A DNA stretch of 64,000 bases from Maribacter arenosus (GTDB lineage Bacteria > Bacteroidota > Bacteroidia > Flavobacteriales > Flavobacteriaceae): assembly GCF_014610845.1 (NCBI RefSeq), contig NZ_JABTCG010000002.1:496001-560000 (forward strand). The letters run 5' to 3'. Below the pieces are notes generated by a model. The model did no database searches and was not told the DNA's origin. It was given only the letters and a program-made list of their open reading frames with translations. Both the position numbers and the translations under genes were made by a program. Positions 9,826 to 63,628 of the stretch are shown in pieces. Every line of letters starts with the position of its first letter. Within the stretch, counting starts at the first letter, position 1.

Positions 9826-10018
9826 ACGAGGGACAATTTTACAATTATTAATTCACATCACATAGGAAGTGTAGATTATAACGTAGGCCCCAAAATCCAC
9901 CAATCGTAAATCGTAAATCAATTAATTAACCAGAATCTCGAAATATCGAACCTGATTGAAAGCACCTAAATTCAACATTCGTAAATCGTAATTCTAAAAT
10001 CATAAATCGTAAATCAAG
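9826..10018. repeat. Heptad array (CGTAAAT class) between nrdB and nrdA
   Basis: The 201-nt spacer contains several runs of the 7-mer CGTAAAT/AATCGTA (around 9904-9920, 9970-9985 and 9997-10015), partly degenerate, and its complement near 9820-9830. It is the same 7-nt periodicity as the larger arrays elsewhere in the window, but with a different heptad. It ends 2-5 nt before the nrdA start, so it forms the untranslated leader of nrdA. Confidence 0.7.
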
Positions 10019-14216: not shown

Positions 14217-14571
14217 TCCTTTTTAAGATGTTTGATCAACCCAAATAATGTTTTTGAAATTTCATCACAAAGAGAATACAATATTTTAAATTCCAATTCA
14301 CTTGCGTACTGAATATCATAGGCCAAATACAATTGTGACTTCACTTCATAACATGAAGCTAGGGCAATTTAAGAAAATAGTCAAATTCCTTGTTTGAGGC
14401 TCTACCATACCCTTCTGCAATATTAGAAGAAATGGAAATTGATGCCCTACGTATTTGATCTCTTAAAGCAAAGTCATTTGAAAAATCACTTTTCTGGGTC
14501 AAAGAATATATTTCCCTATTTAGTTCTCTTGCCTTTTTCCATGAAATAATCTGTTCAAAACCCTTCTCCAT
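14204..14571 (-). pseudogene. Four-helix-bundle protein (23S rRNA intervening-sequence family), frameshifted
   Basis: The 5' part (14571 to about 14365) encodes 70 residues with the family signature R-D-Q-I-R-R-A-S-I-S-I-S-S-N-I-A-E-G. It stops early after F-D-Y-F-L-K-L-P. In another frame the sequence continues as ALASCYEVKSQLYLAYD and on to the normal family C-terminus (LFGLIKHLKKDLNS), stop at 14204-14206. Restoring one A in the AAA run near 14369 (minus CTTAAATTGCC to CTTAAAATTGCC) rejoins the two. This is a one-base deletion in a short homopolymer, so real decay or a sequencing error are both possible. The family is known from 23S rRNA insertions and as the Avd-like fold, but its job here is unknown. 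Confidence 0.85.
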
Positions 14572-18865: not shown

Positions 18866-18897
18866 AATGTCGAAAGTCGAAAGTCGAAAGTCGAATA
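18866..18897 (+). repeat. Heptad array (GTCGAAA) between sufD and the four-helix-bundle gene
   Basis: Four consecutive copies of the 7-mer GTCGAAA/GTCGAAT directly after the stop of the four-helix-bundle gene (read on plus). The same heptad recurs at 32.5, 37.7, 39.4, 56.9, 57.7 and 60.4 kb. Confidence 0.85.
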
Positions 18898-19266
18898 TTA
18901 ATCTCGTTTTTCAAGATATTTGATAAATCCGCTCAACATTTTAGAAACATTTTCTATTTTACTTTTTAATTCCAAAAAATCATTTTCAGCTATATATTCC
19001 AAGTCATAGGACAGGTATAATTGTGACCTTACTTCTCCTGCGGATGCCTTAGCTACATATAAATAATAAATAAATTCTTTATCCGTATTTCTTTCAAACC
19101 CCTCCGCAATATTGGAACTTATTGAAACCGATGCTCTTCTAATCTGTCTTTTTAAATCAAAATCCTTTTCAAATAGCCCTCTATTTGTTATCCTATAAAT
19201 ATCCCTGTTGAACTCCCTACTTTCTTTCCAAGCGGTTATTTCTTCAAATAAGTTTATTTTAGGCAT
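18898..19266 (-). CDS. Four-helix-bundle protein (23S rRNA intervening-sequence family), intact
   Basis: 122 residues from the ATG at 19266 (three codons inside the open frame, MPKINLFEE). The family signature is L-K-R-Q-I-R-R-A-S-V-S-I-S-S-N-I-A-E-G, then K-E-F-I-Y-Y-L-Y-V-A-K-A-S-A-G-E-V-R-S-Q-L-Y and a helical C-terminus ending YLEKRD. The fold is the up-down bundle seen in IVS proteins and in Avd of diversity-generating retroelements. Inserted between sufC and sufD in the operon direction and bordered on both sides by 7-nt repeats. The biological role is unknown; a nucleic-acid-binding role is inferred from the basic face of the family. Confidence 0.92.
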   Translation of the reverse strand: MPKINLFEEITAWKESREFNRDIYRITNRGLFEKDFDLKRQIRRASVSISSNIAEGFERNTDKEFIYYLYVAKASAGEVRSQLYLSYDLEYIAENDFLELKSKIENVSKMLSGFIKYLEKRD

Positions 19267-19274
19267 AATGCACA

Positions 19275-19318
19275 TTTGGATTGAACATTAGACTTTTGGA
19301 CTTTTGACTTTAAGACTT
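19275..19318 (-). repeat. Degenerate heptads upstream of the four-helix-bundle gene
   Basis: On the minus strand the stretch reads AAGTCTT, AAAGTCA, AAAGTCC, AAAAGTC-like 7-mers, i.e. RAGTCNN heptads. With the array at 18866-18897 they bracket the gene. Confidence 0.6.
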
Positions 19319-19322
19319 AGAG

Positions 19323-32486: not shown

Positions 32487-32512
32487 AACTGGAGTTTAAG
32501 GTTTAAAGTTAC

Positions 32513-32790
32513 GGGTTTCTTGTTCAAAAGTCGAAAGTCGAAAGTCAAATGTCGAAAGTACGAAGTTTGGAGTTTGGAGTTTGAAGTTTGGAGTTTAGAG
32601 TTTGGAGTTTGGAGTTTGAAGTTTGAAGTTTGAAGTTTGAAGTTTGAAGTTTGAAGTTTGAAGTTTGAAGTATTTAGTACAAAGTATAGAATATTAAGTA
32701 CCAAGTATGGTGTATGATATCTGACATCTGATCTCTGAACTCTGAACTCTGAACTCTGAAAACGGTTTCTGGTTACTAAAATCAAGTACA
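32513..32790 (+). repeat. Heptad array (GTCGAAA, GTTTGGA, GTTTGAA, TCTGANN classes)
   Basis: Consecutive 7-mers fill the gap between the amidohydrolase end and the DUF1080 start. In order: GTCGAAA-like; about five GTTTGGA; about ten GTTTGAA; RAGTATN/ACN; then TCTGACA, TCTGATC, three TCTGAAC, TCTGAAA (about 32720-32761); then TTTCTGG. The 7-nt phase is kept across the class changes. It also encodes a spurious minus ORF with a TSNFKLQ repeat. Confidence 0.9.
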
Positions 32791-37637: not shown

Positions 37638-37671
37638 CACAAAAAGGACCATATTAGGGGAGAAATCAGGT

Positions 37672-37818
37672 TTCGGGTCGAAAGTCGAAAGTCGAAAGTC
37701 GAAAGTTGAAAGTTGATTGAAGACGGAAGAAGGAGCGCGGTTGCCGGTTTAAGGTTTCAAGTTTCTGGTTTAAGGTTCAAAGTCGAAAGTCAAAAGTCGA
37801 AAGTTGAAAGTTTGGAGT
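37672..37818 (+). repeat. Heptad array (GTCGAAA, TTTNNGG classes)
   Basis: Begins with four GTCGAAA and two GTTGAAA, then a degenerate part (including GAAGACGGAAGAAGGAGCGCGGTTG), then TTTCAAG, TTTCTGG, TTTAAGG and more GTCGAAA. Joins directly onto the type-2 element at 37819. Confidence 0.85.
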
Positions 37819-38035
37819 GTACCTCCCCTTTCTTCCGCTGAAGCGGAATTCATTCCCCTCCCCACCTACGGTCGGCAGGCTCCATCCAAGGAGGGGAGCT
37901 ATAAAAAGAGAATACCAAAAAGCCTTCTCCCCCATAAAGTCGATGTACGCAAAAAAAGTCCTCCCCTGAAGAAGAGGGGAAGCCTGCCTGCCTTTGGCAG
38001 GGTGTCCCGCCCTAGCGGGACGGAAGGGTCTGACA
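37819..38035 (+). repeat. Type-2 dispersed palindromic element, copy 1
   Basis: About 217 bp. Hairpins include TTCCGCTGAAGCGGAA, CCCCTCC...GGAGGGG, a Cys-rich-like GGCAGG pair and GTCCCGCCCTAGCGGGAC. Other copies lie at 39392-39594 and, rearranged, inside 57950-58120. Confidence 0.85.
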
Positions 38036-38070
38036 TCTGAAAACTGGTTTAAGGTTTCTGGTTTCTGGTC

Positions 38071-38372
38071 ACTAATCCCATTGAGAGCGCTTCGAGCCTC
38101 GCGAAGACGATCCAGATAAGCATAAGGATAGCAATACCTTCCATGGAGAGGACCCTTATCCGCAGCATAGTGTTTGAAAGCTCCGATAACAGGAGCTGCA
38201 GCATGCAGCGACGCGGAGTTTCAGACACGGTTTTTCTTTTCGGAAAAAGAAAAAATGCCTCGGATAAGGCACCTTTTTCTTTGTTTCGTTTCTTTTGGGT
38301 GGGCAAAAGAAATGAAAAATCACTCGCTTTGGTTACCAATACCCATGAGATTGCTCGTGCCTCGCGAAGCCG
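38071..38372 (+). repeat. Type-1 dispersed element, copy A
   Basis: About 300 bp, with a terminal direct repeat on each side: left CATTGAGAGCGCTTCG...CGCGAAGACG (38079-38113), right CCATGAGATTGCTCG...CGCGAAGCCG (38342-38372). This copy lacks the 20-bp CCTGCCTGCC palindrome that copies B, C and D have after CCTTTT. Bordered on both sides by heptads. Contains spurious ORFs in both directions. Confidence 0.85.
38154..38269 (+). ncRNA. Candidate structured core of type-1 element, copy A
   Basis: The ends CCTTATCCG (38154-38162) and CGGATAAGG (38261-38269) pair. Inside, GAAAGCTCCG pairs with CGGAGTTTC (one bulged G), an apical GCTGC...GCAGC hairpin, and TTTTTCTTTT pairs with AAAAAGAAAAA. A T-run follows. 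The pairing is kept in four copies. An RNA or a structured single-stranded DNA form are both possible. Confidence 0.4.
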
Positions 38373-38387
38373 TAGGGCAGGAATGTC

Positions 38388-38437
38388 AAATATCTGACTT
38401 CTGAAATCTGAAATCTGAACTCTGAAAACCGGTTTCT
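38388..38437 (+). repeat. Heptads (TCTGANN class) next to the AraC gene end
   Basis: TCTGACT, TCTGAAA, TCTGAAA, TCTGAAC, TCTGAAA in 7-nt register. Ends three bases before the stop of the AraC gene. Confidence 0.8.
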
Positions 38438-38440
38438 CCC

Positions 38441-39334: not shown

Positions 39335-39390
39335 TAGTTTCAGGTTTCTGATTTCTGGTTGAAAGTCGAAAGTCGAAAGTCGAAAGTACG
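39335..39390 (+). repeat. Heptad array (TTTCTGG, GTCGAAA classes)
   Basis: TTTCAGG, TTTCTGA, TTTCTGG, then GTTGAAA and three GTCGAAA, GTACGAA. Runs directly into the type-2 element. Confidence 0.85.
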
Positions 39391-39391
39391 A

Positions 39392-39594
39392 AGGGTACCA
39401 CCCCTTTCTTCCGCTGAAGCGGAATTCATTCCCCTCCTTTACAAAGGAGGGGAGTTATAAAAAAGGTAAAGTCAAATAGCTTTGCTCCACATAAAGTCGA
39501 TGGACGCAAAAAAGTCCTCCCCTCAAGAAGAGGTGAAGCCTGCCTGCCTTTGGCAGGGTGTCCCGCCCCAGCGGGACGGAGGGGTCTGACATCT
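39392..39594 (+). repeat. Type-2 dispersed palindromic element, copy 2
   Basis: Same order of hairpins as copy 1 at 37819 (TTCCGCTGAAGCGGAA, CCCCTCC...GGAGGGG, GTCCCGCCCCAGCGGGAC) with about 15 nt less in the middle. The AraC gene lies between copies 1 and 2, in the same orientation. Confidence 0.85.
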
Positions 39595-39799
39595 GAAATC
39601 TGATGTCTGAAATCTGATCTCTGAAATCTGAAATCCCCTAAACTGATACCCGTCATTGTCACTACTGGTACGAAGACATAGATTTAAGGAACATTAGGAA
39701 ATAGTCCCACCCTTTTTTTACCGAATGGTGGGGATAACCCCTTGGTACTCGGGCCTACCGATTGATACCAACCACCGTAAACCGAAAAATTCTAGTGAA

Positions 39800-46087: not shown

Positions 46088-47335
46088 CTAAAAAATGTCT
46101 AAGAGGTCTAACACTTTGTTTCCAATTGTGTCATCTAAAAAACCCGTTTCTTCATCAATTACAGATACAAAGCCCATCTTACAATAATGATTTATTTCAC
46201 CAACGCCGCCTTCAAAACTGGAGTAATCATCTGTTTTATATTCATTAAAACGATTCTTTCTTGTTTCCCCTGGATAGAGCAATAATGCCTTTTCAGCATT
46301 CCAAAAACGACAATACGCATACATCTGCCTTAAATCGTTTACTGATGCTGAGTTTGATGAAGGCCGCTTCCATTTTGTATCAATAATATAGGTTTTGGAG
46401 CCCTTCCTTAAAACAATATCTGGGCGTAGGGAATTATTTTCCCAGAAATCCTTGGATTCTTGTCCTTCCACTGCAATATCGGTACCTATACAAGCTTTTC
46501 TAACCTGTTTAAGAATAAATTCTTCCCAGAGCTGATTCATGTCAAATAATAGGGACAACATCTTTTCCTTTCCACTGGAAATATCAGGTGAGTAATTAAG
46601 AATTATAAGACGAGCCAGTTCTAAGGCATATTGATAACCCTTTGTTTTTCGACCTATTTTAATGTTTTCAAGATGCTGGGAAGTAATAATTTTATTATCT
46701 ACTATTGGAAAGTTCAACAACACTCTCTTGCTAAAATCATACAAGCGCATACCTTTTGAAAAATGATCAACTATATCCAAAGCTTTATATATAATTTGAT
46801 GGAGTATATGATTGGTATCATAAATCTGATGGGTAGTATAAAATCGTTCCTTATGTACCACATTGTGTCTAATGTTTCCGGCAAATTCGAGTTTTCCTTT
46901 TAAGGCTTTGGTATTTTTGGTTTCCAGTCGATATTTCTTTAACAGCCCTCTTCGAATAAGGCCATCGACTTCATGTAAATACAGCTCAAAATAAACTTCA
47001 AGTAAATTCAAATGTTGCCTGCGAACATGGGCGGGCCCAGTTGAAGAGGCCTTTAACTTACCACATGCCTGGAGCATTTTTAAAAGAACCCCTTTCCATT
47101 TTTCTTCGGAGTCATCCTTATCTGCTTTTGGATTGATTTCAATGGTTAAGCCATCAACTTGAATTACCCCTACATATTGATTAAATTTTATACCCTTTGC
47201 AATGGGTTCAAAATAGACCCCTTCATGGTATTCGTTCAATTTTAACAACGCGTCTAAATGATCTCTGGTAAAAGCATGTTCGCCAATTCTGAGGCGTTGA
47301 TGTTCAAAAACTGATATGGGTTTATGTCCTAACAA
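46088..47335 (-). CDS. mcrC: McrC-family nuclease subunit of a type IV restriction system
   Basis: 415 residues. McrC partners with McrB to cleave modified DNA. The PD-(D/E)XK site is L-R-P-D-I-V-L (Asp306) and Y-I-I-D-T-K-W-K (Asp319, Lys321). N-terminal region is the McrC-specific McrB-binding part. It starts one base after the mcrB stop. Confidence 0.93.
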   Translation of the reverse strand: MLGHKPISVFEHQRLRIGEHAFTRDHLDALLKLNEYHEGVYFEPIAKGIKFNQYVGVIQVDGLTIEINPKADKDDSEEKWKGVLLKMLQACGKLKASSTGPAHVRRQHLNLLEVYFELYLHEVDGLIRRGLLKKYRLETKNTKALKGKLEFAGNIRHNVVHKERFYTTHQIYDTNHILHQIIYKALDIVDHFSKGMRLYDFSKRVLLNFPIVDNKIITSQHLENIKIGRKTKGYQYALELARLIILNYSPDISSGKEKMLSLLFDMNQLWEEFILKQVRKACIGTDIAVEGQESKDFWENNSLRPDIVLRKGSKTYIIDTKWKRPSSNSASVNDLRQMYAYCRFWNAEKALLLYPGETRKNRFNEYKTDDYSSFEGGVGEINHYCKMGFVSVIDEETGFLDDTIGNKVLDLLDIF

Positions 47336-50300
47336 CTAATTTTCTTGTTTATTTTCTTTATCGGACAATAACAAATTAACTGCCTCGACTATAGAATCTT
47401 CATTTACTTTCTTTAAAACGAAAGTCGGGGTTTTGAAATCGTTTTGACCTTCATAATCAAAACTTGCAAAATCAATTTTGTTATTATTAAGTTTCTCTAC
47501 AAAACCCTTACCAAGAACCAATCCTATTTTACCATAATCACCATAAAAGTATTCTTGTAATAATGGAATAATTCTATCGCTAAAAGCATTAGCCAATAAC
47601 TTTTTAGAATCAACATTAATAAAATAGGAATGACCAATAGTATGATCTCTATCTACCAACAATTCTATTCGAGAATTTAAGGTTTTAAGAACTTCAGATA
47701 GATTAATATCTTCTACCTTTTCATTCGCAATCACATTAATATCAGGCATAATTTCTTGAAATGAAAATCTTCTTCGTAAAGCAGTATCCAAAGCTTCTAC
47801 ACTCCTGTCCGCAGTATTCATGGTGCCAACTATGTAGAGATTGGCAGGGACCCCAAATTCAGTCTTTGAATATGGTAGTTTCAACCTTAATTCCTGTGGT
47901 TTGCCTATTCTTTTATCATCTTCGATAAGGGTAATGAGTTCGCCAAATATTGCTGAAACATTACCTCTGTTGATTTCATCGATAAAAATGGCGTAATTGT
48001 TCTGCGGATCTTGTTCAGCTCTTTGACATAATTTCTTGAATATCCCTTCTTTAATTTCATATTCAAGTGTAGAATTACCTTCATCCAATTTTGGTTTAAT
48101 ACCCTCTACAAAATCTTCATAACCAAATGATTGATGAAAGGTCACAAATTCATAATTCTTGATAGTTTTATCTTCATTTGGTTGAAAGTTATTAATCTGT
48201 TCCAATATTTCGACACCTTCCGGATATAAGCTCTCGACTTTTTCAGTAACAACGCGCCATTCAGAATCTACTTCTTTATAAAAAAGTGAAGGTTCGCTGC
48301 TATCGGCAACATTCACATGAGGACATTCAGGAACCGCATGTGCCTGCATTCTGCTCCATGCAATAGGTCTAATATTTTTCGCATTGGATAAACTGGCCTT
48401 CGCCTGTACAATTTCATGTTCCAATAATTGGTTTACCGATGTTTTACCAGAATCGTATAATGCGATTGCAAAAGTTTGCCACCACGTTAAATCAGATACA
48501 AGATTTAAAATGAACTGTTCTTTAGTCAAGGAACTTTCACTTATTGTAAATCTTTCGAAGTACTTTTCTCTTAACCTATAAGTTTTCCCCGTCCCTGGTG
48601 GACCATATAAGATTGTATTCAAGGATTTAAACGATTTATTGGTTTTTTCGTTCATATTAATATCCGTTTGATATATATCATTAATAAAATCTTGGTTGGT
48701 AAATCGCCTGAAAGGGCTATTGTTATTTCTTAGTAGTTCTATTTTAAATCCTTCATTTATGTTTTCCTCGAACCCTTCTAGGTCTTCAACTTCATTCCAG
48801 TATGCTTCAATTTCACCCTTGTGGTTGGTAAAATGGCCACTTTTTTTGCTTAGAATATTCTTAGAAATAAATGAAAATTCTGTTTTGCTTTTTACTTTTT
48901 GAATACTTAATGAATAACGGTTTCCGATAATAAATGCAAGACGATTTTTATTTGGCCTTACATTAAAACTTATTCTTTTATCAGTTGGTTCTAATTTATT
49001 ATGTTTCACGTAATTTCTTAGAAAAGAAATAAACTTGTCAAGCTTCTCTTGGTCTAAAACCTTCCTTACAGTTGAATATATACTATTGTCATTTGATAAT
49101 GCTATATCAAGAATAGTTTTATATTCTTCTTCAGTTGCTGAAAAATTGGTTCCTTGATTACCAACTTTTAAATCTTTTAATTCTTCCAATGAATCAATAC
49201 TTTCTTTTAGAATTGGAGAATCAACTAAGTTATGAGTGATTTTGACATCTGTTTTTAATTCACTTTTATCTTCTTCTTGCCATAGGTGGTCATCTGGTGA
49301 AGAAGTTCTTTCATGAGGTTCTGAAGTCACTTCTGCTAAGGCATAGCATCCAGAATTATCCCCGGTTATCCATAAGATGACTTTATCACCAACTTTTATT
49401 TTGTCCTTGTGAGCACTCACCGTCCAGTCGGTCAAAATTTCCTGCTTCAACGCTGTTTCAAAGTCAAATACTTTTGGATTTCCTTGAAAAATCCAAAAGT
49501 TCATCTGGCCTTTTTGTTCTAGTATCTGATATAGAATGTCCTGGGCCAATAGATTATGATTACTACCGTCATAATACTCAGGTATTAAACCTTTTACTTG
49601 CTCAATTAGCTCGTTATCTGGAATAATGTAGTCTTCTATTAATTCCTTAATCAGATTTAAATAATGGGTGTATTTTTCATTTTTCTTAGCCTCTTTTATC
49701 CCTAATAATTTACAGTATTTTTTATAAAATGAGGATTTATAAAAAGTATATTTATCCGGGTAGTGAAAAGTTAAATAGGTAGAAATAGACCTTTCATCTT
49801 GATGATGTTGGAGCGTCTCTCCCAATCCTCTGTATATTTTTAGCGATTCTTCATTAAAATATTTAACCCTCTCTGTTAAATCTTTAGTTTCATCAAAGAG
49901 ATTTACAAATAATTGCAGCGTCTCTTCTGGTTTTCTTTTTGCCAAATCGTATATGACTGCCTGCCCCATGGCATACATTAAGTTGCCAAACTTAACATCT
50001 TTTAGCTCTTGATAAAAATCATCTGCATTAGTATTTGGTCGCCCCCCATACTGTTTTAAAAGTTCCCATTTGTAGACTTCATCCTTCAAATTATTTTCAG
50101 AAATTCGCTTTTTGTATTTCTCGATTAGCGTTTTTACAGGATCATTTTTTTGAACTATTTCATACCCTTCTTTTTCCAATAATTCAAAAGCAAAAGTTCC
50201 TTTACCCCCTAGAAAATCACCTGAATCCAGTTCAATACCATTTGCATACTTATTTGCAATTGAGATTACGAGTTTGGGAGGATATGCTTTGCCCTCATGA

Positions 50301-50404
50301 ATTAGGTCATAAGTTGAAGAATGTCTTCCTTTTCGAATCCCGTTTTCGTCAATCTCTTTTATTGCTTTTTCAATATGTTCTTTTGTAATGTTATTTGGAA
50401 TCAT
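47336..50404 (-). CDS. mcrB: McrB-family AAA+ NTPase with an EVE-type modified-base reader
   Basis: 1022 residues. N-terminal ScoMcrA-like head domain (about 1-85, I-T-K-E-H-I-x-K-A-I, G-R-H-S-S-T-Y-D-L); a middle helical domain; an EVE/PUA-like domain (about 299-430: W-I-F-Q-G-N-P-K-V-F, K-I-K-V-G-D-K-V-I-L-W-I-T-G); a beta domain (about 430-570); then the McrB AAA+ core with Walker A G-P-P-G-T-G-K-T near residue 600, D-E-I-N-R-G-N near 810 and the sensor T-M-N-T-A-D-R-S near 862. EVE domains read modified cytosine, so the target is likely modified DNA. Confidence 0.93.
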   Translation of the reverse strand: MIPNNITKEHIEKAIKEIDENGIRKGRHSSTYDLIHEGKAYPPKLVISIANKYANGIELDSGDFLGGKGTFAFELLEKEGYEIVQKNDPVKTLIEKYKKRISENNLKDEVYKWELLKQYGGRPNTNADDFYQELKDVKFGNLMYAMGQAVIYDLAKRKPEETLQLFVNLFDETKDLTERVKYFNEESLKIYRGLGETLQHHQDERSISTYLTFHYPDKYTFYKSSFYKKYCKLLGIKEAKKNEKYTHYLNLIKELIEDYIIPDNELIEQVKGLIPEYYDGSNHNLLAQDILYQILEQKGQMNFWIFQGNPKVFDFETALKQEILTDWTVSAHKDKIKVGDKVILWITGDNSGCYALAEVTSEPHERTSSPDDHLWQEEDKSELKTDVKITHNLVDSPILKESIDSLEELKDLKVGNQGTNFSATEEEYKTILDIALSNDNSIYSTVRKVLDQEKLDKFISFLRNYVKHNKLEPTDKRISFNVRPNKNRLAFIIGNRYSLSIQKVKSKTEFSFISKNILSKKSGHFTNHKGEIEAYWNEVEDLEGFEENINEGFKIELLRNNNSPFRRFTNQDFINDIYQTDINMNEKTNKSFKSLNTILYGPPGTGKTYRLREKYFERFTISESSLTKEQFILNLVSDLTWWQTFAIALYDSGKTSVNQLLEHEIVQAKASLSNAKNIRPIAWSRMQAHAVPECPHVNVADSSEPSLFYKEVDSEWRVVTEKVESLYPEGVEILEQINNFQPNEDKTIKNYEFVTFHQSFGYEDFVEGIKPKLDEGNSTLEYEIKEGIFKKLCQRAEQDPQNNYAIFIDEINRGNVSAIFGELITLIEDDKRIGKPQELRLKLPYSKTEFGVPANLYIVGTMNTADRSVEALDTALRRRFSFQEIMPDINVIANEKVEDINLSEVLKTLNSRIELLVDRDHTIGHSYFINVDSKKLLANAFSDRIIPLLQEYFYGDYGKIGLVLGKGFVEKLNNNKIDFASFDYEGQNDFKTPTFVLKKVNEDSIVEAVNLLLSDKENKQEN

Positions 50405-50576
50405 ATGATGTTTTTCTATTTGGAACTCGTTTTTAAATAAATACTTAAAGTTCTATTTACACCCAATAGGGTCGAATAACCTTTGTTTTATTTATATCAT
50501 TTTTGAAGGCAGATAAGAGGTATAGCAAGGTAACAGGAAGTGCCGAGCTATTTACTGACAAAAGTCATAGAATTCA

Positions 50577-50756
50577 CTAACTAATGCGATTGTTTTCGTC
50601 GCTTTCACTAATAGTTGCTGGAAAATCCACCAGCACATTGGCCATATCTACATAAAGTGATTTTTTGGTCATTTTGTTAAGTGGCTGAGGCAGTGCCCAT
50701 AATTGGATATTGGGCGTTTGTAAAAAGTTAATGATGTGGAGTTCAGTGGCTTTCAT
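50577..50756 (-). CDS. 59-residue ORF with a DUF262/GmrS-like N-terminus
   Basis: ATG at 50756-50754 overlaps the helicase stop (ATGA), so it is coupled to it; stop at 50577-50579. The first ~19 residues (MKATELHIINFLQTPNIQ) look like the start of DUF262/GmrSD nuclease proteins, then the sequence diverges. It may be a truncated piece of such a gene or a small accessory protein. Confidence 0.5.
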   Translation of the reverse strand: MKATELHIINFLQTPNIQLWALPQPLNKMTKKSLYVDMANVLVDFPATISESDENNRIS

Positions 50757-53272
50757 TCAGATTGGTTTACATAAACTTGATTATAGTCTTCTCTACTTAA
50801 GACAGTATCATAACCTCCAACATTTTGACCTTGGTGTTTGTTAATTCCAGTGTATTCTAGACTTGCATCTTCATATCTTTTGAATTTGTAAACAGCATCA
50901 TTCATTAATGAGCTGTTGAATACTCCTAAGCTCACTAAAATTTCAAAATCCTTTACATTTAATCCTGTCACTTTTTTAAATAAACCAGGCTCCAATTGTG
51001 TAATAACATCTTTTAAAGTATGTTCTCTATAATCCGTCAAGTACATGAAAACAGGAATTCGTGTGGCGAATTTGATTAACTTTTCTTGAATTTGTTTTCT
51101 GAGGCTTTTATATTCCTTTTCTTCATCAGATAACTCTTTCTTTTCTTTCTTGGTCATCTCTTTATCATTCTTCTCCTTCTTGACTTTTTTAACTGCTTCT
51201 GATTTGTTGATGATAGTTTCAATGTCTTGATTTAAGGACCTGAAACCTTCAATACTCATTAATGCGTTTAGAGCGTCAGGATTATTCTTTATTCTTTCAA
51301 GTGTTCCATTATCAACATTTACGAGTAATGCTGATTCCCACCTACGTGCCAAAAGAGTTGCTGTTGTTCCGCTCATGGCAATATCTAGAACGCCAGCAGC
51401 ATCTACCTGTTTCATAGAACTGCCGTCATAGGCTAGAACAGGTAAAAAGTGAATAAACTCGGCAACGTTTTTCTCCGGGTTTGATTCATTTACATTTAAA
51501 CGGCAAGCATAATCTGCTACTTGACTTAATGCACGATTTGGTGCAAAATCGAAAACGTAGCATTCTTTTTTAATAATTTCTGTTTTGTTCGGTGATTCAC
51601 CATCTGGGTTTTTTATTGCCCAAGGCGTTTGAACTCTAAAAGCAGCTTGAAAATAGGTTTCAGGACTAGAGGAGTTCCGTAACATAAAAATACCCGTCCA
51701 AGGCTTAACGGAAACCCCGGTAGTAAGCTTACCACAAGATAGGGTTATGGTCTTTGTGCTTAAAGGATTATCCATTGCCTCTAATACAGGAGGTAAAGCG
51801 GCAACCCCTATACCAGCTTGAGTACCGGCAGCAACTATTATTTTATAGTCTTTATAGAAGGTATTGTTAGGTTTGAGCATTAAGTTTTTCATGGCATGGC
51901 ATGAAGCCACACTTGGTAAGAACCAAAAAGTATGGTTTAGAATGCTCAATAAACGAGAATCTGAAAACGGCATAGGTGGTTTTTTAGCCCCCAGTTTTAG
52001 GTCGTCTAGTGTTGTGGCTGAAAAGCTGCCCCTTATCAAGTCTAGCCATTTTTGTACAAATTCTTCCATGACAAAATGGGCATTTTCCATATCACCTTTG
52101 GCTTCAAAAAATACGTTCAGGTCAAACTCATTGAACTCACCACCAATAGCCACTTCCTTAATGGAGTCTGGCATTTGATAGGTAAGCATCACCATTCTAG
52201 GCAAACTTTCATAGGGGTTGTTTTCGCCTACCCATTCTTCTTTTGCATTTTGCTCATCAGTATACGTCCAGTTGAAGATTTGTTCTTCTATAAATTCACC
52301 TGAAGTCAATGCTCTAAAAGGGGTGCCCGATAGATATAAAAAGTGATTGGTGGTAATAGGAATAATATCTGCATCGAAATTTTCAATTTTTCCGACTTTG
52401 CGCTCAAAGTCTTTTAAATCTTCGTCCTCACCGTTTTCATATAACTCTTCAAATAAAGCTTTTGAGTTTTCGTTCCAGGCGCCAAAATGGTATTCATCAA
52501 AAATCACACAGTCCCAGTTTGTTGCATGTACCCATTCGTTTTTGGTTTTAATTCCTCCTGTAGAAGTGTTTTTTCCTAAAAAATCTTGAAATGAACCAAA
52601 GCAAACAAATGGTTTTGTCTCGTCTACTTCATCTTCTATTGTGTTTTTACTAATAAACTGCCAACCTTCAAAATCTACATGGCACATTAAGTCTTCTTGC
52701 CATGAATTCTCTACGGCTGGCTTGAAAGTGAGGACCAACACCTTGTTCCAGTTCATTGTTTTTGCTAACTGATAAGCTGTGAATGTTTTACCAAACCTCA
52801 TTTTGGCGTTCCACAAAAACTCGGGTGTGCGAGCACTTGATGTTCTATCAAAACTTTTAAAATAATAGGCAGTTTGTTCTATAGCCTTTTTTTGCTCAGG
52901 GCGCATTTTAAAGTTTAAGGACCGATTCTCTTCGTTTAGCTCACCTTTTTTTACCGCAATTAGTGCTGCTTTAATATCTTTTATAGTGCAATGAAACCAT
53001 TCTCCATCTGCGTTTTTAAAGCCTTTGTTTTTGAGGTAACGATGTACATCATAATCCATAAAAGTAGAACCATCGTTACGCATGGCGCTTTCTTCTAACA
53101 CAATACGGTATTCAGCTCTTGTTGCACCAACTTGTTCCTTGATTCGATTCTGAGCTGTTCTGTTGGTGAAACCTACTTTCAACTGCGCTTTACGACTTGT
53201 ATCGTTTGGCAACTCATAGGCGTAAACAGTAGGTGTAACTTCTGATTTTTTAGGAAATAACTTTATGTCCAT
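50753..53272 (-). CDS. GIY-YIG-like (T5orf172) domain fused to a DEAD/DEAH helicase
   Basis: 839 residues. N-terminal T5orf172/GIY-YIG-like domain (about 12-100: Y-A-Y-E-L, L-K-V-G-F-T, Q-N-R-I-K-E-Q). Superfamily 2 helicase with Walker A K-M-R-F-G-K-T (157-163) and Walker B D-E-Y-H (259-262); a charged Lys/Glu-rich coiled region near residues 690-720. Probably the restriction/translocation subunit acting with the methyltransferase ORFs upstream. Confidence 0.88.
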   Translation of the reverse strand: MDIKLFPKKSEVTPTVYAYELPNDTSRKAQLKVGFTNRTAQNRIKEQVGATRAEYRIVLEESAMRNDGSTFMDYDVHRYLKNKGFKNADGEWFHCTIKDIKAALIAVKKGELNEENRSLNFKMRPEQKKAIEQTAYYFKSFDRTSSARTPEFLWNAKMRFGKTFTAYQLAKTMNWNKVLVLTFKPAVENSWQEDLMCHVDFEGWQFISKNTIEDEVDETKPFVCFGSFQDFLGKNTSTGGIKTKNEWVHATNWDCVIFDEYHFGAWNENSKALFEELYENGEDEDLKDFERKVGKIENFDADIIPITTNHFLYLSGTPFRALTSGEFIEEQIFNWTYTDEQNAKEEWVGENNPYESLPRMVMLTYQMPDSIKEVAIGGEFNEFDLNVFFEAKGDMENAHFVMEEFVQKWLDLIRGSFSATTLDDLKLGAKKPPMPFSDSRLLSILNHTFWFLPSVASCHAMKNLMLKPNNTFYKDYKIIVAAGTQAGIGVAALPPVLEAMDNPLSTKTITLSCGKLTTGVSVKPWTGIFMLRNSSSPETYFQAAFRVQTPWAIKNPDGESPNKTEIIKKECYVFDFAPNRALSQVADYACRLNVNESNPEKNVAEFIHFLPVLAYDGSSMKQVDAAGVLDIAMSGTTATLLARRWESALLVNVDNGTLERIKNNPDALNALMSIEGFRSLNQDIETIINKSEAVKKVKKEKNDKEMTKKEKKELSDEEKEYKSLRKQIQEKLIKFATRIPVFMYLTDYREHTLKDVITQLEPGLFKKVTGLNVKDFEILVSLGVFNSSLMNDAVYKFKRYEDASLEYTGINKHQGQNVGGYDTVLSREDYNQVYVNQSE

Positions 53273-53280
53273 ATAAAAAA

Positions 53281-53652
53281 TTATAACTGACGACCATTGT
53301 CAAAATCTCCCAAAAATTGTTGAGGAACTGTATTTCTAACTGCTGCAACATCTTGGATCTCACCAAGAACGAATGAATGGTTTTGTTTGAGATTTTCAAT
53401 AAATTCATTACAGTTTACTCTAGAAACGATTCTTCCTACTCCGGCGGTCTGTGAAAGATCAGCTCTTAAGTTTTGCGGTTGAGAAAAAAATAAAATTCTT
53501 CCCTCTTGAGCCCAAGCTCCAGATTTATCATTGAATTCCCATACTAAAACTGTTGTTCCGTCATTTTTTGTTAGATAGCCTAGGAACTCATAGAATTCTC
53601 CTTCTGAATTGAATATAATTTGCTTTTTGGACCCAAAGGATTGTTTGTACAT
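53281..53652 (-). CDS. Small protein between methyltransferase and helicase genes
   Basis: 123 residues, no motif recognised, mixed alpha/beta. Overall position, 8 nt before the helicase start and 18 nt after the methyltransferase stop, shows that it belongs to the operon. Possible accessory or specificity-related protein; no HTH seen. Confidence 0.7.
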   Translation of the reverse strand: MYKQSFGSKKQIIFNSEGEFYEFLGYLTKNDGTTVLVWEFNDKSGAWAQEGRILFFSQPQNLRADLSQTAGVGRIVSRVNCNEFIENLKQNHSFVLGEIQDVAAVRNTVPQQFLGDFDNGRQL

Positions 53653-53670
53653 GTTATAATAATTTAAAGA

Positions 53671-55167
53671 TTAATTCATTTCCCTAATTACAGTCTCGAT
53701 AAAGTTAATTTCATCTTTACTTAAATTATACTTAATATTGAGGTGATCGTCAGTCCATTTTTGTTGCATGTTTAAGTCTGGAACAAATATGAACTTACTT
53801 TTAGTAATGTTTTGCGTTAGAAGTATTGTTGAAACCAAGAATCTACAAAATTTGGTCTTCAAATATTCTGTCAAATTGATTGCCTCCATTTCAGATGAAT
53901 ATGCGCCGACTACTAAATAAGATTCAGTACATACCGTGCCAGGTGGCATAACTTCTATTCTCGAGAAGATTCTGCGTTTACCCTCCTTATCAGGCTGACC
54001 ACCATGATCGTTTGAAGCTTTTGAGAGTAAAACTTTCCATTTGTCAACGTATTGTTTTCCAGAGGTTATAGCGGATTTTGAAATTTTACCCCTACCTCCA
54101 CTGGAAATTAATTCTAATTCACCTTTTTTTGATGGGCGTACTTTGGAATTAAGACCAAATGGCATCCTGCTAGAGACAAGGGAATTTAAAAATTTAGTAT
54201 TTTGACTCTTGACCTTATGAATGACACCAACGGCTATGTTATCTCGCACGAAAGTATCAAATTCATTAAGGTATCTAACAGATTCTAATTTTTCACCTTT
54301 TCGCACTGTAATAACTTTACACATGCCATTATACCCACTGTCCCACAAAAAATAACAAATACCACCCGCGATATCCACTCCTGGAAAACACTCCCGTGAA
54401 TCAACGTAATCAACAAGTTCTTTTATACTTCTGTCCTGAAGCATTTCATTACGAAAACTATCTAAACCCTTGCCACCTGAATACCATCTAGCTGGAATAA
54501 TCATTGACAAATATCGTGGCTTAAGACGTTTTGCTTGTTCAATAAAATGCTGGTATATTGGCTTTGCGCTAGATCCAGTACCGCCTCCATCATTTAATTG
54601 ATAAGGCGGGTTCCCGATAATTACATCGAACTTCATATTGAATATATTTTGTGGCTTATCTGTATGGATAAATTGATAAGCGTAGGTTTCTAAATCTTCT
54701 GTTCTGCTGTACACTTCTTCGCTTGCCCCGCAGTAGGTACATTTGCCGTTTTGCCAAGTATGCTGCAACCGGTCATATTTTATTTTTCCCTGTTCCGTTG
54801 CAAAGGCAGTGGTAACGGAAAATTCTCCATTTGCTTTTTTTGAGCAATAGGTACTTCTTCTTGCTAAAAGTGAAGTAAGTTCGGTGATAGCAATACCAAA
54901 TACCTGTTTGGTAAAAATGTGATTTACCCGTTCTTGTTGGTCTGGGATTTGGTCTTTGAGTCCGTCATTTAGTCTTTTGGCAATTTCACGTAAAAACACT
55001 CCTGATTTGGTTACTGGGTCTAAAAAAGTGGTTTCCTTACTTTGAAATAATTCCTGCGGAAGCAAGTCCAAAATCTCGTTAACCAATTTAGGGGGCGTAA
55101 AAACCTCGTCATTGCTCAAATTGGCAAGACAAGATAGGACGTCTGGGTTATAGTTAATCTGCAACAT
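53671..55167 (-). CDS. Eco57I-type N6-adenine methyltransferase with NPPY motif but degenerate SAM motif
   Basis: 498 residues. Motif IV N-P-P-Y at 186-189 (I-I-G-N-P-P-Y-Q-L-N-D-G-G-G) is intact. Motif I reads F-L-D-P-V-T-K-S-G-V-F (48-58), lacking the usual C-G. A C-T-Y-C pair (143-146) may bind zinc. The C-terminal half has S-M-I-I-P-A-R-W-Y-S-G-G-K-G-L. Overlaps the next gene upstream by 14 nt. This group lies next to GIY-YIG helicases in many genomes. Confidence 0.9.
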   Translation of the reverse strand: MLQINYNPDVLSCLANLSNDEVFTPPKLVNEILDLLPQELFQSKETTFLDPVTKSGVFLREIAKRLNDGLKDQIPDQQERVNHIFTKQVFGIAITELTSLLARRSTYCSKKANGEFSVTTAFATEQGKIKYDRLQHTWQNGKCTYCGASEEVYSRTEDLETYAYQFIHTDKPQNIFNMKFDVIIGNPPYQLNDGGGTGSSAKPIYQHFIEQAKRLKPRYLSMIIPARWYSGGKGLDSFRNEMLQDRSIKELVDYVDSRECFPGVDIAGGICYFLWDSGYNGMCKVITVRKGEKLESVRYLNEFDTFVRDNIAVGVIHKVKSQNTKFLNSLVSSRMPFGLNSKVRPSKKGELELISSGGRGKISKSAITSGKQYVDKWKVLLSKASNDHGGQPDKEGKRRIFSRIEVMPPGTVCTESYLVVGAYSSEMEAINLTEYLKTKFCRFLVSTILLTQNITKSKFIFVPDLNMQQKWTDDHLNIKYNLSKDEINFIETVIREMN

Positions 55168-56645: not shown

Positions 56646-56804
56646 GGTATCGTATTTTTTTACTGGTATTATCCAATAAATCAGCAGGTTTGACTCTCAG
56701 CCCTTAACTTAATAACGGCACCCTGAATACGATATATTAAAGATAGAAAATAATTCGACACAAAAAAGGATTTTTTGGTTTTTAACATATGGGAGGTAAG
56801 ACGT

Positions 56805-57118
56805 AAGATGTAAGAAGTTTGAAGTTTCAGGTTCCTGGTTTCTGGTTTCAAGTTTCTGGTTCAAAGTCGAAAGTCGAAAGTTGAAAGTTGAAGGTTGGAA
56901 CATTGACTGAAGAAGGGTAATGGTTGATGGTTTAAAGTATGAAGTATTAAGTATAGAGTACTAAGTATTAAGTACGAAGTTTGGAGTACTAAGTATTAAG
57001 TACGAAGTTTGGAGTTTGGAGTTTGGAGTACGAAGTATAGAGTACGAAGTCTGATGTCTGAAAACTGGTTTCAAGTTTCTGGTTTCAAGTTTCTGAAATC
57101 TGATATCTGAATTCCGTT
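56805..57118 (+). repeat. Heptad array, best-preserved register in the window
   Basis: TTTCTGG, TTTCAAG and GTCGAAA heptads first, then from 56935 to 57060 eighteen successive 7-mers: AAGTATG, AAGTATT, AAGTATA, GAGTACT, AAGTATT, AAGTACG, AAGTTTG and so on, all R-A-G-T-N-Y-N except the last (ATGTCTG). The register never slips in 126 nt although the four other positions vary. Then TTTCAAG/TTTCTGG/TCTGANN again. Confidence 0.95.
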
Positions 57119-57191
57119 TTGTGCGGATCAGGGTACGGAATGGGGGTTTCAACAACTTTTTACACTAATTTTAGGCAAAATAATATTACCC

Positions 57192-57671: not shown

Positions 57672-57870
57672 AAGAAGTATTAAGTAAGAAGTTTCAGGTT
57701 CCTGGTTTCAAGTTTCTGGTTCAAAGTCGAAAGTCGAAAGTTGGAAAGTCGAAAGTTGAAGGTTGGTAGTTGAAAGTTCTGAAATCTGTTATCTGACTTC
57801 TGATATCTGCAATCCGAAATCTGAAATCTGTTATCTGACCTCTGACATCTGAAAACCGAAAACCGGTTTC
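57672..57870 (+). repeat. Heptad array (TTTCTGG, GTCGAAA, TCTGANN)
   Basis: Same vocabulary as at 56.8 kb; includes runs of TCTGAAA and TCTGTTA/TCTGACC in 7-nt steps. Confidence 0.85.
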
Positions 57871-57874
57871 TGTT

Positions 57875-58422
57875 CACTAATCCCCATGAGAGCGCTTCGT
57901 GCCTCGCGAAGACGTACGCCATTCGTTTTGTCATTCGTACTTGATGCGGAATCCTTTCCCGTCCCCACCTACAGTCGGCAGGCTCCATCCAAGGCGGGGA
58001 GTTATAAATAGGGAATACCAAAAAGCTTTGTTCCACATAAAGTAGATGGGTTGAAAATCGACCTCCCCTTTCTTCCGCTGAAGCGGAATTCATTCCCCTC
58101 CACACCTACGGTCGGCAGGCTTCTAACCTCACCAAGACGACCCAAATAAACATAAGGATGGCAATACCTTACATGGAGAGGTCCCTTATCCGCAGCATAG
58201 GGTTTGAAAGCTCCGAAAACAGGAGCTGCTGTACACAGCGACGCGGAGTTTCAGACACGGTTTTTCTTTTGGAAAAAGAAAAAATGCCTCGGATAAGGCA
58301 CCTTTTCCCTGCCTGCCGGCAGGCAGGTTTGCTTCGTTTCTTTTGGGTGGGCAAAAGAAATGAAAAATTAATCGCCTTATTTACCATTACCCATTGAGAG
58401 CGCTTCGTCCCTCGCGAAGACG
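57875..58422 (+). repeat. Type-1 dispersed element, copy B (interrupted by type 2)
   Basis: Left terminal repeat at 57875-57914; type-2 sequence in the middle; remaining element 58125-58422, ending in the right terminal repeat (CATTGAGAGCGCTTCG...CGAAGACG). Contains the 20-bp palindrome at 58308-58327. Confidence 0.85.
58184..58298 (+). ncRNA. Candidate structured core of type-1 element, copy B
   Basis: CCTTATCCG (58184-58192) and CGGATAAGG (58290-58298) close the core. The apical hairpin differs from copy A (hexamer TGTACA in place of AGCATG) yet still pairs, which points to selection for pairing. Confidence 0.4.
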
Positions 58423-60297: not shown

Positions 60298-60650
60298 TTT
60301 CTTAGGTTCCGGGTTTCTGGTTTAAGGTTTCTGGTTGCGGGTTTCAGACACAAGGTACAAAGTTCTAAAAAAATCAAGCGAATTCCGCCTACTGATCACT
60401 GAAATCTGACATCTGGTTTCTGGTTCAAAGTCGAAAGTCAAAAGTTGGAAAGTCGAAAGTCGATAGTCGATAGTTGGAAAGTTGAAGTTTGGAACGTTGA
60501 CTGAAGACGGAAGAAGGGGCACGGTTGATGGTTTCTGGTTCAAAGTATTAAGTATTAAGTATAGAGTACGAAGTATTAAGTACGAAGTCTGAAGTCTGAG
60601 GTCTGACATCTGAAAACTCGTTTCTGGTTGATGGTTTCTGGTTTCTGGTC
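60298..60650 (+). repeat. Heptad array
   Basis: TTTCTGG/TTTAAGG, GTCGAAA, AAGTATT/AAGTACG, TCTGANN classes in succession, with degenerate joints (for example the GACTGAAGACGGAAGAAGGGGCACGG stretch at 60498-60523, also present near 37714 and 56902). Confidence 0.85.
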
Positions 60651-61073
60651 ACTAATCCCATTGAGATCGCTTAGTGCCTTGCGAAGACGACCTATAGAAA
60701 CATTAGGATGGCAATAAGTTCCATGGAGTCGTCCCTTATCCGCAGCATAGGGTTTGAAAGCTCCGATAACAGGAGCTGCGGTAGGCTGCGACGCGGAGTT
60801 TCAGACGCGGTTTTTCTTTTGGAAAAAAGAAAAAATGCCTCGGATAAGGCGCCTTTTCCCTGCCTGCCGGCAGGCAGGTTTTTTTCGTTTTACTCATGTC
60901 ATATTGTGTGTTTTAAGGTATTCGTGAACCTCCTTCGTCGGTTTGTTTTGGGCGAGCAAAGAAAATGAAGATTCACGAACTCCTTTTCTAAAATAAAAAC
61001 AGCGTGAGCTAAATGAAAAATAAATCGCCTTAGTTACAAATACCCATGAGATCGCTTCGTGCCTCGCGAAGAC
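60651..61073 (+). repeat. Type-1 dispersed element, copy C (long form)
   Basis: Carries the palindrome CCTGCCTGCC.. at 60859-60878 and an additional segment (to 61050) with the inverted repeats TTCGTGAA/TTCACGAA. Terminal direct repeat at both ends (ATTGAGATCGCTTAG... and ATGAGATCGCTTCG...). Confidence 0.85.
60734..60849 (+). ncRNA. Candidate structured core of type-1 element, copy C
   Basis: CCTTATCCG (60734-60742) pairs with CGGATAAGG (60841-60849); the GAAAGCTCCG/CGGAGTTTC stem is intact; apical hairpin weaker in this copy. Confidence 0.35.
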
Positions 61074-61074
61074 A

Positions 61075-61330
61075 CAGGCAGGTTTTTTTCGTTTTACTCA
61101 TGTCATATTGTGTGTTTTAAGGTATTCGTGAACCTCCTTCGTCGGTTTCTTTGGGCGAGCAAAGAAAATGAAGATTCACGAACTCCTCTTTCAAAATAAT
61201 AATAGCGTGAGCTAAATCGAAGATTCACGAACTCCTCTTCTAAAATAAAAACAGCGTGAGCTAAATGAAAAACAAATCGCCTTAGTTACAAATACCCATG
61301 AGATCGCTTCGTGCCTCGCGAAGACACAGG
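61075..61330 (+). repeat. Tandem duplication of the tail of type-1 copy C
   Basis: The GGCAGGTTTTTTTCG segment at 60873 recurs at 61077, 204 bp later, and continues to the same right terminal repeat (61300-61325). Inside it, the TTCACGAACTCC...AGCGTGAGCTAAAT part (about 61168-61265) is itself doubled. Confidence 0.85.
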
Positions 61331-61645
61331 CAGGGCTGGAATGACAAATATCTGACTTCTGAAATCCATCAACCAACAACTTTCAACTATCAACTATTTC
61401 ACCTACAACCCTTCGACCCTACCTTCACTAAAGTTACGGTAGACAAGTGCGCACAGGGTGACATCCCAATTCTGACCTCTGATATCTGACCTCTGAATTC
61501 TATCCCAAGCATATTGCATACTAATGGTTTTTTTAATATCTTAATGTTTCCTCCGCAATTAGCACCCAGGCCTCCCCACTTTTATTTGGTGTTCCCAAAG
61601 GACTCGGTGTAGACATCACAATGTAAAACAACTAAATCATCGGAT

Positions 61646-62577: not shown

Positions 62578-63228
62578 GTGAGTTTGGAGTATTAAGTAAG
62601 AAGTTTGAAGTCTGACATCTGAACTCTTATCTCTGATCTCTGATCTCTGGTTTAAGGTTTCTGGTTTCTGGTTTCTGGTTTCTGGTTGATGTAAGTCAAA
62701 AGTTGGAACGTTGGAACGTTGGAAAGTTGAAGGTTGGAGTTTGATGTATTTAGTACAAAGTATAGAGTATTAAGTACGTAGTTTGAAGTCTGACATCTGA
62801 ACTCTTATCTCTGACCTCTGATCTCTGATTTCTGGTTTCTGGTTTCTGGTTTCTGGTTTCTGGTTGATGTAAGTCAAAAGTTGGAACGTTGGAACGTTGG
62901 AAAGTTGAAGGTTGGAGTTTGGAGTTTGATGTATTTAGTACAAAGTATAGAGAATTAAGTACGTAGTTTGAAGTCTGACATCTGAAGTCTGACATCAGAC
63001 ATCTGGTTTAGGGTTTCTTGTTTCTGGTTGATGTAAGTCAAATGTCGAAAGTTGGAACGTTGGAAAGTTGGAAAGTTGAAGGTTGGAGTTTGGAGTTTGG
63101 AGTTTGGAGTTTGGAGTTTGATGTATTTAGTACAAAGTATAGGGTATTAAGTACGAAGTTTGAAGTCTGACATCTGAACTCTTATCTCTGATCTCTGAAA
63201 TCTGATTTCTGGTTTCTAGATTCTGGTC
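62578..63228 (+). repeat. Higher-order heptad super-repeat
   Basis: The block TCTGACATCT begins at 62611, 62789, 62974 and 63166, i.e. periods of 178, 185 and 192 bp, which increase by exactly one heptad each. Each unit has the same order: TCTGANN, TTTCTGG, GATGTAAGTCAA, GTTGGAAC, GTTGGAG/GTTTGGA, RAGTACN. Internal landmarks (GATGTAAGTC at 62688, 62866, 63030) also differ by multiples of 7. Confidence 0.95.
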
Positions 63229-63628
63229 ACTAATCCCATTGAGATCGCTTAGTGCCTTGCGGAGACGACCTATAGAAACATTAGGATGGCAATAAGTTCC
63301 ATGGAGTCGTCCCTTATCCGCAGCATAGGGTTTGAAAGCTCCGATAACAGGAGGTGCGGTACGCAACGACGCGGAGTTTCAGACACGGTTTTTCTTTTGG
63401 GAAAAGAAAAAATGCCTCGGATAAGGCGCCTTTTCCCTGCCTGCCGGCAGGCAGGTTTTTTTCGGTTTCTTTGGGCGAGCAAAGAAATCGAAGATTCACG
63501 AACTCTTTTTCTAAAACAAAAATAGCGTGAGCTAAATGAAAAATCACTCGCTTTGGTTACCAATACCCATAAGATCGCTTAGTGCCTTGCGAAGACGACC
63601 TATAGAAACATTAGGATGGCGATAAGTT
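63229..63628 (+). repeat. Type-1 dispersed element, copy D (plus partial second left end)
   Basis: Palindrome CCTGCCTGCC.. at 63436-63455. Ends with the CCCATAAGATCGCTTAG... repeat, immediately followed by TATAGAAACATTAGGATGG, which is the start of another element interior. Confidence 0.85.
63312..63426 (+). ncRNA. Candidate structured core of type-1 element, copy D
   Basis: CCTTATCCG (63312-63320) and CGGATAAGG (63418-63426). Apical hexamer is GGTACG here. Confidence 0.35.

Follow-up and report, generated by a model that had tools for sequence, protein, structure and literature searches.

Arrays of seven-nucleotide words between genes of Maribacter arenosus and their probable link to S23/IVP four-helix-bundle genes

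The intergenic arrays of seven-nucleotide words (heptads) that we analysed in the genome of Maribacter arenosus are probably linked to genes of the small and widespread S23/IVP four-helix-bundle family, one of which is located in the same stretch of DNA. This link, missed by the first-pass annotation in which the arrays had been described, is the most interesting outcome of the analysis. It gives a testable hypothesis, namely that the S23/IVP protein is part of an element with the repeats at its ends, and the heptamer repeats of several bacterial phyla have so far been described without a known source. The stretch analysed, here called the window, comprises 64,000 nucleotides, positions 496,001 to 560,000 of contig C12 of a draft genome of 4.17 Mb in 24 contigs, and all coordinates without a contig name refer to it. 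We consider, with a probability of roughly 55%, that the window arrays derive from IVP elements, from which they differ in being one-sided and in having no ORF, and that they have spread locally and grow by slippage and by duplication of several words at once.

The array with the strictest register is part of a longer composite:

56935..57060, + strand: core array, 18 heptads in phase, 17 of them fitting RAGTNYN
56796..57118, + strand: whole composite array, with GTAAGAN, GTTTCTG, AAAGTCG, AAAGTTG, AAGTAYN, GTTTCAA and TCTGANN blocks

The observation of heptad arrays made in the first-pass annotation is confirmed and its interpretation is partly supported. Its count of 18 consecutive 7-mers without slip, 17 of RAGTNYN type, was reproduced exactly, and the phase is indeed kept while the word changes: in-register identity in the core array is 0.62–0.78 at lags 7–70, and 0.23 on average off register. 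At 56935–57054, a 28-nt period is better conserved (79%) than the 7-nt one (71%). The core array resembles the 5' arm of the IVP located in the his operon of this same genome (27 of 31 nt) and, in mirrored form, the 3' arm of an IVP belonging to a different genus (57 of 71 nt), both figures having been counted from the alignments; no IVP gene was found near it by Pfam scans or by the IVP search of the window.

The related arrays that had been reported at 9.9, 18.9, 32.5, 37.7, 38.4, 39.4, 57.7, 60.3 and 62.6 kb are all present. Apart from that at 18.9 kb, described below with the gene that it abuts, the other arrays of the window are the following:

9902..10015, + strand: short arrays of AATCGTA and TCGTAAA, at most 5.3 copies, 76%
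32490..32775, + strand: array of AAAGTCG, GAAGTTT, AAGTATN and TCTGAAC
37664..37815, + strand: array of GTCGAAA, GGTTTAA and AAAGTCG
38030..38430, + strand: two short arrays, CTGGTTT at 38044-38069 and ATCTGAA at 38392-38427
39335..39393, + strand: array of GTTTCTG and GAAAGTC
39585..39636, + strand: array of TCTGAAA
57684..57866, + strand: array of GTTTCAAG, AAAGTCG and TCTGANN, with a 42-nt block at 90%
57865..57914, + strand: module that ends arrays (family D8), common to 60640-60689 (88%) and 63218-63267 (82%)
60299..60660, + strand: two arrays, GGTTTCT and AAAGTCG, AAGTATT, GAAGTCT
61346..61403, no strand assigned: array with reversed words (TCAACTA), in a region (61334-61413) with a GC skew of -0.53
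62581..63236, + strand: longest array, a 178-nt higher-order unit cycling many heptad words, with 8-nt steps

In total, the window contains 15 lag-7 clusters covering 2,285 bp (mean 0.01 and maximum 1 in 100 first-order Markov simulations), and 0–3 clusters at each of the lags 4–6 and 8–13. The arrays are intergenic, in that they are placed between long ORFs; short ORFs overlap some of them, and the two overlapping ORFs that were scanned (38049-38504 and 57680-58105) had no Pfam match. The ORFs around the arrays point in both directions. No match was obtained in an Rfam scan of the window, rRNA included, nor any tRNA in a tRNA scan. In a Pfam scan of 40 proteins of the window and the hotspots, the C20 genes were of an ordinary metabolic kind, and the window was seen to contain a restriction/defence cluster. 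This cluster, at 46088-55167, is composed of an McrBC component, an AAA/EVE-domain protein, a T5orf172/ResIII helicase-like protein and an Eco57I-type methylase. Other dispersed repeats, with the palindrome CCTGCCTGCCGGCAGGCAGG and the GAAGATTCACGAACTC module, adjoin arrays at 60812-61334 and 63389-63605, and an ORF at 36668-37360, without a Pfam match, contains a 93-bp tandem repeat (82% match).

The change of words in a constant phase can be explained by slippage, block duplication and point changes in combination. In the arrays at 32.5, 57.7 and 60.4 kb, taken as whole stretches, adjacent heptads have about the highest identity and more distant ones less, and this absence of a rise at longer lags rules out block duplication as the sole mode of growth; single-word slippage must therefore act too. 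In parts of several arrays, longer blocks (28, 42, 29 and 178 nt) are nevertheless better conserved than neighbouring heptads: the 42-nt period at 57778-57861 reaches 90%, against 72% for 7 nt, the 29-nt period at 60427-60486 reaches 87%, against 78%, and a 178-nt period is present at 90% in 62587-63029, although in the 62.6 kb array identity at lag 178 (0.68) is barely above that at lag 7 (0.65). Both single-word slippage and multi-word duplication thus seem to act. Of the suggested process that adds or copies 7-nt words, the copying part stands, as slippage, while a special word-adding process is unneeded. Register is exact in the 18 heptads of the core array, but not everywhere, as 8-nt steps (GTTGGAAC, GAAAGTTG) occur at three places, 62702-62738, 62880-62916 and 63047-63087.

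In the DNA sampled, the arrays are a local feature of the genome. The genome-wide lag-7 peak predicted earlier was not found in the sampled stretches, where we observed instead two hotspots, one in C12, mostly within the window, and one in C20 (332–360 kb). Sampling gave 15 lag-7 clusters in the window and 15 in C20:300-420 kb, 2 in the 80 kb to the right of the window, and none in the 80 kb to its left; contig C1 had none over 340 kb, and the other 180 kb sampled had 2. With a slightly looser threshold, 4 arrays were detected in 740 kb of this genome's stretches outside the hotspots. In seven other Maribacter genomes, a total of 400 kb of DNA, syntenic or neighbouring, contains 2 clusters. 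Because the sampled stretches and the relatives are nearly free of arrays, we regard the two hotspots as lineage-specific and not as a genome-wide feature. Whole-genome searches agree with this distribution: all nine matches of an exact word search for GAAAGTC repeats are located in C12 514.8–535.4 kb or C20 348.5–358.5 kb, all 21 matches to RAGTNYN runs in C12 528–557 kb (a backwards control pattern gave 7 matches), and 22 of the 23 matches to TCTGANN runs in C12, with one on C19. Orientation is mostly uniform within each hotspot (AGT 150 and ACT 36 in C12; AGT 15 and ACT 132 in C20), which bears out the common plus-strand direction noted earlier for the window, where reversed words are present at 61334-61413. 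With respect to a strand bias relative to replication, the GC skew of 20-kb stretches is weak and of changing sign.

The IVP gene of the window is located between sufC and sufD and is flanked by heptads on both sides:

18898..19275, - strand: IVP/S23 'four helix bundle' gene (PF05635, 8.4e-36; TIGR02436, 1.2e-33), between sufC and sufD
18869..18897, - strand: 3' arm of the suf element, made of TTTCGAC words as read in the sense of the gene
19276..19322, - strand: 5' arm of the suf element, made of AAAAGTC words as read in the sense of the gene, between sufC and the IVP gene

The gene is abutted by a GTCGAAA array (18869-18895), and the AAAAGTC word of the other side is the mirror of TTTCGAC, so that the element, 18869-19322, has terminal inverted repeats (arm–arm score 32). 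It carries an S23/IVP ORF, yet lies outside 23S rRNA. Other IVPs of this genome lie in the atpA–atpG spacer and in the spacer that separates hisH-like from hisA-like genes (gene names at these sites were assigned according to the proteins they encode); heptad words border these IVPs as well. The sufC–IVP–sufD arrangement was present in one of the ten Maribacter genomes compared and the atpA–IVP–atpG arrangement in four of nine, two of these with a broken frame. No clean empty site was identified among the Maribacter spacers compared, and spacers differ between species. In other Maribacter species (L231, L234, L236, L240, L242-L244 and L246), these atp or suf spacers are occupied by an unrelated repeat that resembles a hairpin (GTCATTCCTGC...GCAGGAATCC type), which indicates replacement of the spacer content from species to species. 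A further IVP/S23 gene, broken into two pieces, is present at 14243-14553 (- strand), about 4 kb from the suf IVP.

Heptad arms are found at IVP genes of many bacteria. A search with an alignment (A2) of four IVPs chosen for having arrays gave 453 loci, of which the best 80 were kept; these include one member of the query and belong to records of Flavobacteriia, Cytophagales, Ignavibacteria, Calditrichia, Planctomycetota, Sumerlaeota, Pyrinomonadaceae, deltaproteobacteria and cyanobacteria. Among these best 80 of 453 loci, a lag-7 array is present near the gene in 62 (on the 5' side in 39 and on the 3' side in 44), and at most 2 have an array of any other lag between 4 and 13. The words of these same best 80 are mirrored, with CAAT/CAGT upstream and ATTG/ACTG downstream (CAAT 318 and ATTG 102 upstream; 101 and 364, respectively, downstream).

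Since the IVPs of A2 had been chosen for their arrays, we also examined sets that were not so chosen, from the genus, from the family and from plasmids. The strict array threshold was passed by 4 of 31 loci in the genus set and by 12 of 30 in the family set, and the CAAT/ATTG mirror was not seen in these two sets. The two flanks of a locus are complementary to each other, and more so than to the flanks of other loci. In the genus set the flank score was 25.6 for own against 16.7 for other flanks (permutation maximum 21.0; own best of its row at 14 of 31 loci), and in the family set 29.3 against 18.4 (maximum 22.4; 12 of 29), the own-flank scores of both sets exceeding all 2000 permutations. 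The corresponding values were 31.4 against 26.3 in the SIGAN set (maximum 28.9; 6 of 76) and 42.1 against 18.4 in the first 14 plasmid loci (maximum 31.6; 7 of 14). The match was lost once both flanks were shifted by 300–1200 nt (genus and family) or 300–600 nt (plasmids). Over all sets together, the counts are AGT 233 and ACT 51 in 5' arms and 81 and 214, respectively, in 3' arms, and the G-over-C bias is not mirrored between arms.

From the 50 plasmid matches listed, we examined 22, taken in list order with gaps and then for spread over phyla. Arrays are present on both sides in 17 of the 22 (on the 5' side in 18 and on the 3' side in 18), including all of the first 14, and the arm words differ by locus (TAGGGAG, ACAGGTG, GGGAACA, CCAGTGA, TAATTCG); at one locus (L415), the two nearest arrays have the same direction and are not mirrored. 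These IVPs are located between operon genes, such as those of ribonucleotide reductase subunits, cas6/cas4, cas2/cas1, hsdS/hsdR and cas10/cmr3. In about 9 of the 22 loci (L407, L408, L415-L418, L421, L423 and L425), the IVP adjoins genes annotated as belonging to defence or restriction systems (CRISPR-cas, DISARM, type I restriction, helicase/methylase). The reading frames of IVPs are conserved, with dN/dS of 0.06–0.24 in 5 pairs from 3 sites (two of seven pairs were dropped because their lengths differ), and structures of IVP homologues have been solved (2gsc, 2rld). One query of phage records returned no IVP.

The arms of the suf element also resemble several of the arrays that lie apart from it. 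We ranked the arms of 110 IVP loci, the suf IVP and 109 from other genomes, against nine array stretches of the window, a set without the arrays at 9.9, 38.03 and 61.3 kb and without that of the suf element. The suf arms ranked first or second for six of the nine: first for 57684..57866, 32490..32775, 37664..37815 and 39335..39393, and second for 56765-57130, which holds the composite array, and for 60299..60660. They ranked 13th for the longest array, 62581..63236, and the arrays composed of TCTGA words alone do not match them (108th for 38392-38427 and 107th for 39585..39636). In the plasmids, 12 of 13 arrays located more than 200 nt from the IVP (6 loci) match the arms of their own IVP best among 14 loci; the effect is weak in the SIGAN set and in the family set, where 5 of 23 and 2 of 8 far arrays, respectively, match their own arms best. 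Of the 18 arms of this genome's IVPs, 13 are periodic, and all 13 score better against the hotspots than phase-permuted words, as do 18 of 30 arms of the genus and 25 of 41 of the family. No overall specificity of the hotspot words for this genome's own arms was seen, in that these arms fit the hotspots no better than the family arms from other genera (p = 0.11), though they exceed phase-permuted words and the suf IVP ranks high.

From these observations we infer that IVP elements are the source of the arrays, that spread occurs in cis and that the IVP protein takes part. The element would consist of an S23/IVP four-helix-bundle gene, situated between the genes of an operon, and of 7-nt arrays on its two flanks, which often mirror each other and have a word specific to the locus. 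One-sided arrays without the ORF, carrying the word of the suf element and others, would have gathered in neighbouring spacers, mostly in one orientation, and also in the second hotspot; they would lengthen by single-word slippage and by copying of multi-word blocks, and point changes would make new words, so that the phase is kept and the words differ. The explanation is weakened because most long arrays elsewhere are far from any IVP, because the unselected sets pass the strict threshold at so few loci (4 of 31 and 12 of 30) and because arms do not stay complementary at orthologous sites.

We also propose, tentatively and at somewhat less than even odds, a broader reading, in which S23/IVP genes with word-specific inverted heptad arms constitute an undescribed selfish element that crosses phyla and inserts into operons, each copy seeding its own word nearby and leaving arrays without an ORF. 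The heptamers of Cyanobacteria, Beggiatoaceae, Xanthomonas and Bacteroidetes could then represent what it has left behind, and the intervening sequence (IVS) of 23S rRNA a branch that dwells in rRNA. If the S23/IVP protein does belong to an element that ends in the repeats, this would give an origin to the heptamer repeats of several phyla and a role to the S23/IVP protein family, and would account for the genes that interrupt suf, atp, his, ribonucleotide reductase and cas operons.

Among the other explanations, the strongest is that of an ordinary intergenic satellite, shaped by slippage, unequal exchange and mutation independently of IVP genes, which would sit among the arrays or insert into them. 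The behaviour of the arrays is that of a satellite, slippage and block duplication alone explaining the in-phase change of words; words are common to several genera, and most long arrays are distant from IVPs. Runs of the RAGTAYN type, the word of the core array, were found in 17 of 149 genomes of the family (8 with the backwards control), and in all 28 loci examined with four such words (about 20 places) IVP is absent within the stretches examined; one further match (G106:C3:266959) has an IVP at a distance of about 50 nt. Ten of 14 other genomes contain TAACTGA runs and, of 30 such loci examined, 26 are without an IVP in the stretch examined, several of them being inverted pairs without an ORF. 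In two other genomes (G018 and G107), in stretches picked from contigs on which IVPs had already been found, an IVP is within 300 nt of 9 of the 26 arrays, which is above the share of sequence and not a majority. A satellite of this kind leaves unexplained, however, why arrays stand right at the ends of IVP genes, why the flanks are mirrored locus by locus and why other periods are nearly absent at these genes, and we consider it unlikely, although it deserves serious weight.

Less probable still is that the arms are kept by selection as an RNA hairpin, as in the 23S rRNA intervening sequence, with RNase III cutting the IVP segment out of operon transcripts and the window arrays acting as sites of RNA processing or regulation. 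Flanks are complementary at many loci, and the inverted repeats of the Coxiella IVS are described as cut by RNase III (PMC4990558, in the part of the text accessible). When ten array stretches of the window were folded on the plus strand and compared with shuffles, two folded clearly better (z-scores of -4.4 and -4.2, the second giving -2.7 in another run), but the scores scatter from -4.4 to +1.9, with a mean of -1.1, and with such mixed values we rejected the idea that the window arrays fold as one RNA hairpin. Some IVPs are, moreover, antisense to the flanking operon genes, as on plasmids between ribonucleotide reductase subunit genes and between cas2 and cas1. Compensatory change between arms was looked for and not found: in 15 orthologous pairs (10 sites), the score was 57.1 within and 59.6 between genomes, and the own flank was better at 4 of 10 sites. 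At these sites, flanks of one genome are thus no more complementary than flanks of different genomes; pairing may arise on arrival of the element and decay later.

A dedicated enzyme that adds or copies single 7-nt words, telomerase-like or based on a reverse transcriptase, would keep the phase while words vary, but is very improbable, given that slippage and block duplication suffice, that 8-nt steps are present and that no reverse transcriptase or transposase was detected by Pfam among the 40 window and hotspot proteins scanned. An artefact of assembly in repetitive DNA, conceivable in a draft of 24 contigs, is hardly credible, as arrays of the same kind are present in many independent assemblies, including plasmid records described as complete.

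Relative to the IVP-derived origin that we favour, several known systems offer points of comparison. TAACTGA heptamers were described in Beggiatoaceae, Cyanobacteria and five Bacteroidetes (MacGregor, 2015; PMC4679880, accessible text, as for the statements on this paper below) and were noted, without a source, in Thiomargarita (PMC4853749, accessible part). They resemble the arrays studied here in being intergenic direct repeats of 7 nt, found in phyla that partly coincide; indels of these repeats between two Cyanothece strains are mostly in 7-nt steps, and in Gramella and Aequorivita other heptamers are mixed with TAACTGA (PMC4679880). The system differs in having been described as one word, with a possible translational role, and 'S23', 'four helix' and 'intervening sequence' have no occurrence in that text. 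The 3' arms of several IVP loci (e.g., L171, L172, L182 and L190) carry the repeat of this system, GATAACTGATAACTG. In an Okeania genome (G160, locus L197), we counted 624 exact matches to three consecutive TAACTGA words.

G-rich heptamers, GGGAATC and GGGGA(C/T)T, were described in Xanthomonas and Nostoc and read as G-quadruplex repeats, with 70 and 75 inverted heptamer pairs in two Xanthomonas genomes (PMC4692102, in the part accessible). They are likewise intergenic, and neither 'S23' nor 'four-helix' occurs in that text.

Another parallel is the 23S rRNA IVS of Coxiella burnetii, in which, according to the accessible text of PMC4990558, an S23p ORF is located between inverted repeats and preceded by two or three GACAGAT heptamers, whose number varies between strains; the same text states no known function for the S23/IVP four-helix-bundle proteins. 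An S23/IVP ORF between inverted repeats, with heptamers before the ORF, is thus common to both, whereas the Coxiella element is inside 23S rRNA, with heptamers reported for that element only, and the IVPs analysed here are between protein genes. The window arrays differ from an IVS in being mainly of one orientation (AGT 150 and ACT 36 in C12) and without terminal inverted repeats. Among the titles and opening abstract lines listed in searches of open-access literature, and in the accessible parts of PMC4679880, PMC4990558, PMC4853749 and PMC4692102, we found no link of heptamers to S23/IVP genes outside rRNA.

The link hints at a hidden type of mobile element and at a common source for repeats of several bacterial groups, on which separate reports exist. 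REP/REPIN sequences, with RAYT, and MITEs are short non-coding repeats that have related copies with a gene. The repeats analysed here differ from these in having a 7-nt satellite as their unit, and in the window the arrays are one-sided, lacking the inverted ends by which a MITE is recognized as a short element, although inverted heptad pairs without an ORF do occur elsewhere.
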